This document shows positions 37,822 through 59,434 of a stretch of DNA of 64,000 nt, piece after piece. Within the stretch, counting starts at the first letter, position 1, and the number at the start of each line of letters is the position of its first letter. The notes under the pieces were generated by a model, which was given only the letters and a program-made list of their open reading frames with translations, did not search any database and was not told the DNA's origin. The DNA lies in contig OZ005690.1 in assembly GCA_963930775.1 (NCBI GenBank), positions 11,496,411 through 11,560,410 of the forward strand. The letters run 5' to 3'. The stretch is from Cliona cf. orientalis (taxonomy: Eukaryota > Porifera > Demospongiae > Clionaida > Clionaidae). Position numbers and translations under genes: made by a program.

Positions 37822-38329
37822 CACAGTGCACGTAAACGAAAACGAGACAGTGAAACCAGCAAGAAGCACAGTATTGAAGAAAATGAACGAGATGTTGAAG
37901 AGGTATACAAACAATTGCTAGAAAAGCATAGTTCCAAATGGGATTCGCCAAGACTTAGGTTATGGGCTCGTTGCATTTGCACAGAACACCACAGCAGTTA
38001 TGAAGACCCACCAGATCTTCCAGCCTTTAAAGAACCTGAAACCAAGAAACGCAAGGAGTCGCTAACCGAAGCCTTGGCTGAAGCTGCTGTTGCATTCGCA
38101 TCAGCTATGTCTGGTAGCAGTCAAAATCAGGTGTGTCGCAGTGCCCATGTGGAGTCCGGTCCTAGTGTATCGGCAGTGTCCCCTGGAAAGACAGTGGAGC
38201 TGAGAATGAAAAACTATGAATAATTAACTCCGGGTTGTACAGCAACTCCATGATGATGGAATAATTGATGATAAAGAATTTGCGGAGCAAAAACAAAACA
38301 TTCTCACATTTCTACGTAAAATAAACTAA
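37822..38329 (+). pseudogene. decayed partner gene of a Tc1/mariner element (3' part)
   Basis: Homologous to residues ~165-370 of the intact partner at 56406-57909: HSARKRKRD matches SAHKRSRYD, LWARCICTEHHSSYEDPP matches MWAHLIHMNKHTSYDEPP, and the C-terminal LRVVQQLHDDGIIDDKEFAE matches LLRLQQLFDNGGLTKEQYTE. The C-terminal segment is in another frame after a shift at 38221-38228. The 5' part is missing; the left border joins a taaccctcgccgc repeat head at 37746-37812. It is convergent with a decayed transposase, 30 bp between ends, as in the intact element. Confidence 0.8.
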
Positions 38330-38359
38330 CTGGTTGGTTTGTATATGCATGTATAAAAA

Positions 38360-39356
38360 CTACGTATATATTCCGCTATGTTCAATCCATCCCTGACAAT
38401 CTTCCTCTGTTACTTGGGTGAAACTAGCGAGTAGTAGTGTCTGCAGATCTGTGATATGCATCATGTTAGCTTCAGCTGATTTAAGAGTGGTTTTTACTTT
38501 CGAGAAGAGCTCCTCAATAGGATTGAGATCAGGGGAGTATCATAATGGCGGTAGGAAAAGTGCTAGTGCTCCTACTTCAGAGATGGATTGCTTTACCTCT
38601 GCAATGTGGTGTATATATCGAACAATTGTCCAAAACGACCACTGAATGTGGATTAATGCCATTATAAGGCATCAAGTGTGGCAAGAGGTGGGTTTGCACA
38701 AAATTGTAGAATACCTCCCCAGTAGCTGTACCTTGAAAGGTCCGCACATCCAATAATCCAGCTGACATGCATGCGATCGCTGACTCAGAAACACGTTCCC
38801 CTCTGACCAAAAGTGCTTAATTTTTGGCAGGTTTTCCACGGATACTGTAGCCATATCTTCTTTGCTTGTTCCTAGCATCAGACCCAGTCTCGTCTACAAA
38901 GACGAACATCTCAGTGGCATAAACAGAGACCTCTGAGCTAAACTGCTCTCTCAGCATTGCATCTTGTTGCAAAGCTACTGTTCTCATCCGTTGACGGGTG
39001 AAACCACTCTTGTGTAAAAAGGTGCACAAGCTAACCTCTACCAGCAATGTAACTTCCAGTTCTTTTTGGATTTCATGCAAATAAATTCCGGGGTTTTGAA
39101 GAACAAGGTGTAGAACAAACATTTGAGCAGGTGGGGTAAGCTTTCTTGCTGCCTTCTCTTTTGGATAGGGTCTCTTATGTACACTCCCAGTGGTTTTGAA
39201 AAGAGCTACTGTTCTTTGAGCAGTTGATTTATCGACCCCGAGATTTTTTGAAATCTGATCAAATGTGTATCCCAATACCATCCTTTGGTAGACCATTCTT
39301 CACCTTAAGTCATCGCTATAAGCGCTTGAACGAGCTGGTTCATATGATGTTTTCAT
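38360..39356 (-). pseudogene. decayed Tc1/mariner transposase
   Basis: From an ATG at 39356 the minus strand aligns with the intact transposase at 58928-57951: YSDDLR-stop-RMVYQRM against YANDLRWRVIWQRI, then ISKNLGVDKSTAQRT, FVDETGSDARNKQRRYGYS, VVVLDNCSI and YSPDLNPIEELFSKVK. Damage: TGG to TGA at 39302-39300, a frameshift near 38817, another near 38610, and an inserted stop at 38542-38540. All three catalytic acidic positions are still recognisable. Confidence 0.85.
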
Positions 39357-55960: not shown

Positions 55961-56200
55961 TAAACATCATATAACATAAATTATCACCATGGCATTGAGG
56001 AATACATATCACTAAGGGCTTGTAAACTTCTATTACCTACATGTAACATAGCATATTATTGACAGCTATACAGTAGTGACCACCCCTTGAAAGGGATGGT
56101 AACTACTATACCCGATACCCACGACCAGGTGTTTTGATCCCGCTCAATTCAGTGTACTGGTGTTCACCTCAGTACTGCCGTTTGCATTTCACTTTGAACG

Positions 56201-56405
56201 AGGAATCCGGAATTAATTGGAAGTTCGTACCGTGTGCGCGTGATCGTGACGTAAACATTCCGATCACGTGCACGTGCATGCATATGCATATGATATCTAG
56301 CATGCACTTGCATGCCTGCGCATATGCTTGCATGCTGCATGCACTGAGCTGACTGTACTGTGTATGAATCATCTGGCCGTTCCACGTGTTTCCAGGTGAT
56401 GTACG
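56201..56405. promoter_or_regulatory. left subterminal region and probable partner-gene promoter
   Basis: Rich in short palindromes: gatcacgtgcacgtgc, catgcatatgcatatg, gcatgcctgcg. It lies between the inverted end and the partner gene ATG. Binding by the transposase or an E-box factor is only a guess. Confidence 0.4.
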
Positions 56406-57909
56406 ATGGCAGAAAAAAGAGCGCCTGCTGGTACTGGCACTGGCAATCCGTTGTCAGCTCACTGGTTGCTCCTGGCGAACATACAACGACAAATAGAAAT
56501 GTTACAGTCTAGTAATCCGAGCTCCCGAGCCGCCATGATACCCACTACGACCATCTCAGTGCAGCAGTTACAGCAGCAGGTATCACGTTAATTTTATTAA
56601 ATATTATAGTGTGTATTGGCCCTGTTTACATTACCAATGAATGTAGTCATCAGTGTCCCCAGATTTTTCGAGTCCTTTGAGGCTGCAAAAAGTGTAATGT
56701 GCATTAAATAGGATCATTGGTATATTATTTTCCTATAAATACCGTGCTTGTGTGTGTGTGTGTGTGTGTGTGTGAGTGAATGAGTGTGTGTGTGTGTACA
56801 TTCACATGTCAATCGGAGTGTGTGATTGTGTGCACATCTCAATTAGTATCATGTAGCTACTATTTACCACTGAATGTGTTTGTATGCATGTGTGTATGCA
56901 TGTGTGTATGGATGTGTGCTATGTGCTCATGTCCTTGGCTTATTTCCATTGTTTACAGTATGGAAACATTTTGGCTGGACCACAACTGAGTATATCGAAC
57001 TCTGGTTCTTTCTCAAATCCTACATCCTCAGCCGCTGTCCTAGCCTCATCTACAGCATCAAGCATACCCTCATCTATAGCATCAAGCACAGCCTCGTCTG
57101 CAGCAGGAACCACACCCTCATCTGCAGCACAAACTCCTCCACTTTCTCTCAAGATTGTGAATGAAAAGAAAAAGAGTGAGTATGTTGTGCAAAACCTGCA
57201 TCTAAATACTAGATTTTCATCTCTGGTTGCTTTAAAACGAGCAATACTTTCCAAGTGTGAAGATCGAATATCTATCGAGTCTGGATTTGGGTACATGCTA
57301 CCCGGCCATGGGGCGAGGAGGAAACAGCGATGGTTGATGTGTGATGACGATTTACAGGAAATGTACTCTGTTCATGATGGTAAAGAAGAGATAATGCTAT
57401 GGAGTTATGCTGCTAGCACCTCAAAGCGTCCATATTCTCAAGGTGACCCTGAAGAAGGCAGTAGTGCACACAAGCGCTCTAGGTATGACAAACAGATTGA
57501 CAAACTACAAGAGGTGGATGAAATTGAAGACAAGCTCCGGTCTAAGAATGAGGGGAAATACACAGAAGAGCAAATCAGGATGTGGGCTCACCTGATCCAT
57601 ATGAACAAACACACATCATATGATGAGCCACCAAACAAGAGATTCTGGAAGTCCAAATCATCTGGTATAGTAGCTACTGGGGCAACTACTTCTGGGGCTA
57701 CAGTGGCGACTAGTTCTGGAGCTGTGGGGGTGGCTACTTCCAAAGGTGTATCTGCATCCCCAGGAAAGAGAGTGAATCTTCGAGGGCAATGCATAGATCA
57801 ACTTCTCCGATTGCAGCAGCTCTTTGACAATGGTGGCCTGACCAAAGAGCAATATACAGAAATGAAGGAGGGGATAATGAATGAAATGAAAATGTTTGAT
57901 GAACAGTGA
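56406..57909 (+). CDS. transposon partner protein with SHOCT-like C-terminus, 2 exons, 374 aa
   Basis: Exons 56406-56579 and 56959-57909 join in phase 0. Residues 1-58: short helical start (LLANIQRQIEMLQ). About 70-105: Ser/Thr/Ala repeats. About 115-205: a compact domain (SLKIVNEKKKSEYVVQNLHL, SGFGYMLPGHGARRKQRWLM, DLQEMYSVHDGKEEIMLW) that may have a ubiquitin/PB1-like fold. Then a basic patch (HKRSRYDKQ), a helical part (EEQIRMWAHLIHMNKHTSYD), an Ala/Thr/Gly linker, and residues ~335-370 QLLRLQQLFDNGGLTKEQYT.., which fits the short C-terminal (SHOCT) motif pattern L..L...G.IT..E. A decayed homologue pairs with a related transposase at 37.8-39.4 kb. Function unknown. The (tg)n run at 56749-56800 lies in the intron. 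Confidence 0.85.
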
Positions 57910-57950
57910 CATGCACTTGAAAATGATACAGTACAATAGATAATCTAAAA

Positions 57951-58928
57951 TTAATAGCCACATTTTGTGATCCAGCCTTTGCATTGTGATTGTGTGATGC
58001 TAGCAAAACCAGCTTGAACAATATCTTTGTGTGGCATGATACCCAGCAGATCCTGATGTTCTTTGAGATAACCCTTCACATACCCAAAGGCAAGTTCTAT
58101 CGGGTTTAAATCTGGGCTATAAGGTGGTAGAAAAATTAGTAATATTCCAGCTTGAAGGAATAGGTCTGCCACTTCTTGTGTGTGGTGGATAGAGCAATTG
58201 TCCATCACAGCAATGGACATAGAATTGGAACCATCAAAGGGTCTCATTTCCGGAATCAGGCTTCCCCTAACAAAATCAAAAAAGACGTCACCATTCACTG
58301 AACCTTCAGTAAGTTCAAGTGCAATGAGACCATGAGATGAAAGAGCCGCAATTGCTGACACGCGCCTTCCCCGTACTAGCAGCTTTCTACAGACAGCCCT
58401 TTCTCCTCGTAGAGCATAGCCATATCTCCGGATTTGGTCCTTAGAATCTGACCCGGACTCATCGATCCATACAAACATCTCAGTTGGAAAGGTGTACACA
58501 CTGGCCATAAAGGAACTTCTAAGCTCCATTGTCCTTTGGAGAGCTACATGCTGCAGTTTTTTTCTTGTCAAGCCATGCTGGGCAAGCAAGCGGCAGATAG
58601 TAGAAAGGTCAACAGAGACTCCAGTAATTTCGTGTACTTTATCAACTATCTCCTTTAAGTGAAGATCAGGTGAAGCCATCACTAAACCAATCACGTACAA
58701 TCTATGGTGACAATCTAGTTTTCGCAGGGTATCACGGGTAGTTGCAGGCTTTGGATCAACTTCCCCAGTTGTTCTGAACCGATCAAAGATGTTGTAAGCT
58801 GTTCCTACAGCTATATTGAGATTCTTTGAGATTGATCTGAAGGACAAGTCTAGTGCAATTCGCTGCCATATCACTCGCCATCTCAGGTCGTTGGCGTATG
58901 GCGCTGTTCGTGTTGGTTCCGCAGACAT
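57951..58928 (-). CDS. Tc1/mariner-superfamily DD34E transposase, 325 aa
   Basis: The ATG at 58928 is chosen because the conserved helix-turn-helix region starts just after it; the longer open frame upstream reads non-protein-like. An N-terminal paired-like HTH (LSFRSISKNLNIAVGTAYNI, TRDTLRKLDCHHRLYVIGLV) is followed by the catalytic domain: VWIDESGSDSKDQIRRYGYA, AVMDNCSIHHTQEVADLF and FLPPYSPDLNPIELAFGYVK. There are 34 residues between the second Asp and the Glu, so DD34E. The enzyme would cut at the 26-bp ends and insert at TA. No damage seen. Confidence 0.93.
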   Translation of the reverse strand: MSAEPTRTAPYANDLRWRVIWQRIALDLSFRSISKNLNIAVGTAYNIFDRFRTTGEVDPKPATTRDTLRKLDCHHRLYVIGLVMASPDLHLKEIVDKVHEITGVSVDLSTICRLLAQHGLTRKKLQHVALQRTMELRSSFMASVYTFPTEMFVWIDESGSDSKDQIRRYGYALRGERAVCRKLLVRGRRVSAIAALSSHGLIALELTEGSVNGDVFFDFVRGSLIPEMRPFDGSNSMSIAVMDNCSIHHTQEVADLFLQAGILLIFLPPYSPDLNPIELAFGYVKGYLKEHQDLLGIMPHKDIVQAGFASITQSQCKGWITKCGY

Positions 58929-59089
58929 TATCGATCTCCCGCCACGTATTTCAAATTTCAACACTGTGACGTCATTGATGGTACGGCGCGCGCACGTGCA
59001 TACTGTATGAGCGGCGTTATATACCCGAAACCCGCTCCCAACTTTAGAAAATTTCCAGAGTATAAGGGAAAAAAAAAAGAAAGTCAATA

Positions 59090-59165
59090 AATGGAGCGAG
59101 GATCGAACTGGGGTCCATGGATCCATAGACCAGAGCCTTAGCCACTGCACCACGGTGAACGCCGC
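59090..59165 (-). repeat. tRNA-derived SINE-like sequence
   Basis: On the minus strand, A-box tggtgcagtggctaaggc, then ccccagttcgatcctcgc as B-box, then a T-rich stretch. Stems do not close as a tRNA. It lies inside the Tc1/mariner element upstream of the transposase. Confidence 0.5.
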
Positions 59166-59434
59166 TGCCAGGTGCTCTTTTGTCACGACTTTATAGACAA
59201 TAGTAGTACTAACCCTTGTGTGTCAAACACTACCCTAAACCAAAACCTACCGAGCCTTAGCGTTCATATTATAATACTGTGTGATTTAGCCCAGCCCCCT
59301 ACGGGGGCTGGGCCGTGTTCCTATTGCGCGCGGAGCGCGCGGGTTTCGGGTATATAACGGGATTCATACTGAGCTGTATACCGCGCGCGCGCGTTAACGT
59401 AACGCGTTCAAAGTGGAATGCAAACGGCAGTATA

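Follow-up and report, generated by a model that had tools for sequence, protein, structure and literature searches.

Background

DNA transposons of the IS630/Tc1/mariner (ITm) superfamily are described as usually carrying one open reading frame (ORF) (PMC8533490). Multi-gene members are already known: an ORF2 of unknown function is recorded in 13 of 13 Paramecium ITm elements (PMC5405496), the Tec and TBE elements of ciliates are presented as multi-ORF (PMC7325037) and mariner elements with Fanzor1, nuclease or methyltransferase genes have been reported (PMC3627910). Accessory genes are also reported from other superfamilies, as in KolobokP and the fungal TET/JBP transposons (PMC9587614, PMC12730594) and in Harbinger, whose Myb-like protein is stated to bind the transposase, to enter the nucleus with it and to bind the element ends (PMC9179366). 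Here we describe a TA-flanked ITm transposon with two convergent genes, located at positions 56175-59430 of a stretch of 64,000 nucleotides from Cliona cf. orientalis (hereafter the window; C2:11496411-11560410 of a 216.8-Mb genome in 149 contigs). One gene encodes a DD34E transposase and the other a predicted protein of 374 amino acids (aa), hereafter the partner. The element almost certainly belongs to a large two-gene ITm clade in which the partner is under purifying selection; all pairing, selection and tree tests reported below were made inside this one genome.

The single-gene DD34E/Tc1 and IS630-like elements resemble the window element in their TA flanks, short inverted ends, DD34E transposase and match to the IS630 equivalog; they usually carry one ORF, whereas here a convergent second gene is nearly universal in the transposases sampled. 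Harbinger is alike in combining a transposase with a second gene, and its published description gives a single origin, a partner tree globally congruent with the transposase tree and a partner that evolves faster (PMC9179366), the last two being features also found here. However, it belongs to another superfamily and has another partner: Pfam did not return the Myb/SANT partner with PIF/Harbinger transposase that marks that system, and the search for Myb/SANT domains in 18 partners gave only one weak SANT-linker match (E 0.083, in one member). By analogy, Harbinger may serve as the nearest worked example for an accessory mechanism. The ciliate ITm elements (Paramecium, Tec, TBE), compared by their descriptions, also join an ITm transposase to an extra ORF, but are described with up to four ORFs and with a tyrosine recombinase in the largest. 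As far as the accounts cited go, the Fanzor-type captures share a mariner transposase and accessory genes between TA-flanked ends; they carry known enzyme domains or Fanzor1, whereas the single partner described here, in which no enzyme domain is recognised, persists clade-wide. The present partner and its clade-wide retention are consequently a variant of multi-gene Tc1/mariner organisation. A survey of open papers by titles and the beginnings of abstracts, a scope that leaves Repbase reports, preprints and most of the subscription literature outside, found no description of this partner. Similar predicted proteins presumably occur in other animals.

Structure of the element and identity of its transposase

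The element is bordered by an end pair of 28 nt at 96% complementarity, identified by inverted-repeat comparison at 56173-56200 (with the TA at 56173-56174) and 59405-59432 (with the TA at 59431-59432), which leaves terminal inverted repeats of 26 bp without the flanking TA. The partner gene lies on the plus strand and is composed of exon 1 (56406-56579, 58 aa, followed by a GT donor), a predicted intron with GT..AG borders (56580-56958) and exon 2 (56959-57909, 316 aa plus stop), the last with at least 135 matches in the genome, itself included. Joined in this way, the exons would encode 374 aa in a stop-free frame. Three conserved blocks were recognised in exon 2: block 1, of about 90 aa (57136-57414), with the family core GYIEPGHGxKGKxRW...DDDLxxMY; block 2 (57472-57657), preceded by a basic stretch resembling a nuclear localisation signal (NLS), with the core WAHxIxMGKHxSxDxPPxxPF; and block 3 (57751-57906), a SHOCT-like C-terminus of the form SPxKRxxLR...QL...L...G.I...Y.E.

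The transposase is encoded convergently on the minus strand (57951-58928) in a stop-free frame of 325 aa with an N-terminal helix-turn-helix region. It matches DDE_3 (PF13358) above the cut-off with an E value of 7e-27 and the IS630 equivalog with 123.7 bits (cut-off 100), while several helix-turn-helix models of Pfam match, each below its own cut-off. A preliminary description of the window, made from the letters without database searches, had read the inverted ends, an intact DD34E transposase and the convergent two-exon gene in the same way, and these readings are borne out here. Across the clade, the D-34-E spacing is 34 in all 24 transposases that match the pattern, the 16 others of the 40 examined being unscored. 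By this spacing and by the TA target duplication at short inverted ends, the clade belongs to the ITm elements; the single gene usual in that group, a customary and not a defining trait, gives way here to two at 137 of 150 transposases.

The ends were compared in 38 pairs that had 350 nt or more to either side, three multi-element regions being left out. TA-flanked 24-mers matching at 18 or more of 24 positions were found in 24 of the 38 pairs, against none of 38 with the right flank reversed and 10-12 of 38 when the elements exchanged their right flanks; the swapped-flank counts arise because the ends are related between lineages, and the reversed-flank control is the cleaner one. Ends beginning CTG or CAG (with TTG instead in a single arm of C2:5600228) enclose 23 of the 38 testable pairs, among them two taken from an earlier end search whose ends are tied with or outranked by another end pair in the later one. 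These 23 pairs represent about 16 lineages once near-identical copies were grouped by us. The two-gene elements measure approximately 1.9 to 3.3 kb.

Pairing of the two genes across the genome

The first protein searches returned at least 135 matches with the partner exon (125 after merging) and at least 123 with the transposase. Ninety merged partner places lay near a transposase (89 convergent and 1 divergent) and 35 more had no listed transposase. The profile PF13358, which is independent of the partner, provided a sample of 150 scored hits out of 548 candidates: a convergent partner homologue accompanies 137 of these 150 best hits, 13 have no partner among the matches listed and none has a partner in another orientation. 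Further searches were made with proteins from distant lineages, and the union of six protein searches plus PF13358 comprises 191 transposase places: a convergent partner accompanies 172 of them, a partner in another orientation 2, and the remaining 17 lack one. Under uniform placement about 1.4 pairs would be expected; the median gap between transposase and partner is 134 bp. A partner accompanies 105 of the 108 full-length open transposases (stop-free and 315 aa or longer), compared with 32 of the 42 remaining short or interrupted ones.

The preliminary description had proposed that the pair be tested for constant adjacency and convergence, and had stated that its view would fall if most related transposases lacked the partner; in this genome the reverse was found. 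It had also named a predominance of stand-alone host homologues as contrary evidence. Sixty of 234 partner places have no listed transposase, and five of them were inspected (two by their downstream flank only). Convergent transposase remains lie beside four of the five; the fifth (C1:12907514) has no transposase within 1.5 kb on each side, and its partner is 98.4-98.7% identical to element-borne ones. Because of these remains and of this likeness, the five places give no evidence for a stand-alone host gene.

Genome-wide, the Tc1/Tc3-type profile PF01498 gave 23 matches with an E value of 0.001 or lower, of which 6 exceed the cut-off. Seven of the 23 are in the clade list, with partners present; of the 16 outside it, 14 have no partner, another is nested among clade elements and the last has a partner close by. 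Such Tc1/Tc3-type matches are few and low-scoring compared with the 172 convergent places of the two-gene clade. Two local groupings were also observed: three two-gene elements of different lineages adjoin within 8 kb at C3:9139663-9147425, and two more stand in tandem at C13:3713952-3718240.

Selection and co-inheritance

Selection was estimated on seven pairs of recent copies, chosen from eleven close partner pairs so that each cluster contributes one. The comparison covers the partner core, with exon 1 and the variable leaders excluded, and 2 of the 14 copies sit in elements whose transposase is missing or broken. The core shows 64 synonymous and 49 non-synonymous differences, i.e. a ratio of non-synonymous to synonymous proportions (pN/pS) of 0.21 (binomial p 1e-15 against neutrality), with single pairs ranging from 0.12 to 0.56. 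This low value indicates that selection preserves the protein product of the partner gene in spreading copies, and the lack of purifying selection that had been put forward as a possible refutation was thus not observed. For the transposase, which is likewise under purifying selection, pN/pS is 0.35 over six pairs, a figure raised by one comparison that involves a broken copy (0.77).

Trees were built for 24 lineages, obtained from 37 pairs by removing transposases at least 95% alike, with a sister copy (C1:31463285) standing for the window element. Of 21 splits, 13 are common to the partner and transposase trees, and the distances in the two trees are correlated with a Mantel r of 0.89, the maximum among 9,999 permutations being 0.56. 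Among the 24 lineages, no conflict between the trees reaches a support of 95 in both. The mean tree distance is 2.1 substitutions per site for the partner and 1.3 for the transposase. The two genes have been transmitted jointly while the clade diversified. Retention through divergence, first suggested from two lineages, therefore extends to 24 and suggests that the partner may serve the element.

The partner protein

The three blocks are conserved among lineages whose partners are otherwise about 25-50% identical. The C-terminal likeness to SHOCT (PF09851) proposed in the preliminary description is present as a match but stays below the curated cut-off: the window partner scores 21.7 bits against 27, and a distant member scores 19.3 bits. 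SHOCT matches at E up to 1 occur in 15 of 18 partners, the best at 3.1e-7. In the PHROGs collection, families without known function are matched by some of the same 18 partners (phrog_888 by 5, phrog_2700 by 4, with best E values of 3.9e-6 and 1.6e-6), and these matches perhaps correspond to the SHOCT-like end.

For block 1, a beta-grasp or PB1 fold would be a guess from the residue pattern. Aligned with four PB1 domains (hhalign), block 1 has a local score of 13.0, while 60 column shuffles give a 95th percentile of 13.4 and a maximum of 16.3; in global mode P is 0.064, and the register is colinear with the acidic motif. The Pfam scan of 18 partners contains no PB1 match, the NCBIfam scan of partners returned weak single-member matches alone, and PDB searches with a single partner and with a profile gave nothing significant. 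No relatives of the partner were found in viral contigs, in bacterial and archaeal contigs or in phages, the contig scans being seeded by short peptide patterns that distant relatives could escape.

The linkers are Ser/Thr-rich and basic, and a basic Ser-rich one separates blocks 1 and 2. One-part NLS-like clusters occur in 18 of 24 partners (shuffle mean 12.2, maximum 18) and the bipartite pattern in 13 of 24 (mean 7.1 and maximum 13 over 200 shuffles). In the transposases, the corresponding counts are 10 of 24 (shuffle mean 4.3, maximum 9) and 0 of 24 (shuffle mean 2.3, maximum 7). The pattern is a weak clue that the partner may be nuclear.

Proposed role of the partner

Elements of this clade probably rely on two proteins, whereas one usually suffices for their known relatives. 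We suggest, with a probability of about 0.5, that the partner serves the transposase as an obligate or near-obligate accessory factor, a proposal drawn from sequence comparison. Cooperation between partner and transposase is the simplest explanation because a dispensable helper would vanish from many active copies. The partner would enter the nucleus by means of its basic linker; its blocks 1 and 3 would mediate both self-association and contact with the transposase, and it would either help the transposase to assemble on the element ends or escort it into the nucleus; copies without a working partner would then spread less readily. How the blocks share these tasks is guesswork. A broader claim is considerably more tentative: that transposition depends on an element-encoded, self-assembling nuclear adaptor, that the clade is an undescribed two-component ITm branch in which the one-protein rule fails clade-wide, and that the protein family is absent, beyond weak matches, from the prokaryote, virus, Pfam, NCBIfam and PDB collections searched.

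Several points weigh against an accessory role. The transposase carries its own helix-turn-helix DNA-binding region and could thus do without a partner that binds DNA, and the transposases of single-gene Tc1/mariner elements move unaided. An escort may be unneeded since 10 of 24 transposases have one-part NLS-like clusters, above the shuffle maximum of 9, and the partner counts equal their shuffle maxima and never exceed them. No domain of the partner is firmly assigned by Pfam, NCBIfam, PHROGs or PDB. Moreover, a derivative at approximately C11:5512850-5514790, whose transposase (C11:5513453) is one of the 13 PF13358 hits counted above as unpaired, has ends and an open transposase together with a partner deprived of block 1, the remaining blocks 2-3 being 98% identical to those of a relative, and two further full-length open transposases have no partner among the matches listed.

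The main rival, possible although clearly less probable than an accessory role, is that the partner acts outside transposition and faces the host, by countering the silencing of the element or by steering insertion to permissive chromatin. Some plant transposon accessory proteins act in such a host-facing manner. The Ser/Thr-rich, basic linkers would suit a chromatin protein and the faster evolution of the partner would suit an arms race, but the core blocks are conserved and the pooled pN/pS is low. As the Myb-like partner of Harbinger is likewise reported to outpace its transposase (PMC9179366), speed of evolution cannot discriminate between the two explanations.

It is rather improbable that the partner is a self-limiting regulator, which would bind the transposase or the ends, damp transposition and so protect both host and element. 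Autoregulation has been reported for the mariner Hsmar1 (PMC3687335), and block 3 resembles a short C-terminal domain that might serve multimerisation; however, the best-spreading copies would easily lose a damping gene, yet nearly all full-length open transposases keep the partner. We disfavour still more strongly a passenger, i.e. a host gene that was captured on a single occasion and brings the element no benefit, since purifying selection acts between recent copies and the gene is kept across lineages with strongly diverged partners. Finally, chance neighbourhood or segmental duplication of one locus is effectively refuted by the 24 diverged lineages with their own TA-flanked ends on many contigs and by the very small number of pairs expected, even though three copies near the end of C1 (C1:37208016-37209781, C1:37393897-37395662 and C1:37463214-37464979), in which transposase and partner show stop codons of matching kinds, perhaps arose by segmental duplication and not by transposition.

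Other copies and features in and around the window element

The sister copy at C1:31463285 is 2969 bp long with TA at its ends, and is 96% identical to the window element over element positions 576-2833 and 90% identical over 151-623. Its partner gene has a frame break. Exon 1 of the window partner is 96.6% identical to that of the sister copy, with two whole-codon gaps, and was recognised in this copy alone among the regions searched.

The right arm of the window element contains an inserted repeat of about 360 bp (59007-59366) with inverted ends of 31 nt, foreign to the element proper and unmentioned in the preliminary description: it is missing from the sister copy and has at least 37 further copies in the genome, 88-99% identical. 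A tRNA-like stretch was noticed by eye within it (59096-59163, minus strand); neither ARAGORN nor Rfam (E up to 0.1) returned a tRNA in this repeat.

The window also holds a second, decayed pair, mentioned in the preliminary description as diverged and convergent, and homology confirms that it belongs to another lineage than the window element. Its partner (approximately 37825-38323, plus strand) retains blocks 2 and 3 only, in a broken frame, and its transposase (38363-39347, minus strand) has stop codons and a frame break. The closest lineage is that of C6:547445, with 73-75% identity for the transposase and 64-66% for the partner, while the decayed transposase is about 41-42% identical to that of the window element. 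No TA-flanked end pair was found in a search around 37825-39347.

Conclusions

Tc1/mariner transposases are textbook single-protein movers, and it is for this reason that they are used as tools. The retention of a second gene in a deeply diverged clade constitutes a natural experiment on what a helper may contribute, whether nuclear entry, assembly on the ends, choice of target or escape from silencing, and several near-identical copies whose frames are open and whose ends are flanked by TA make this directly testable in cells.

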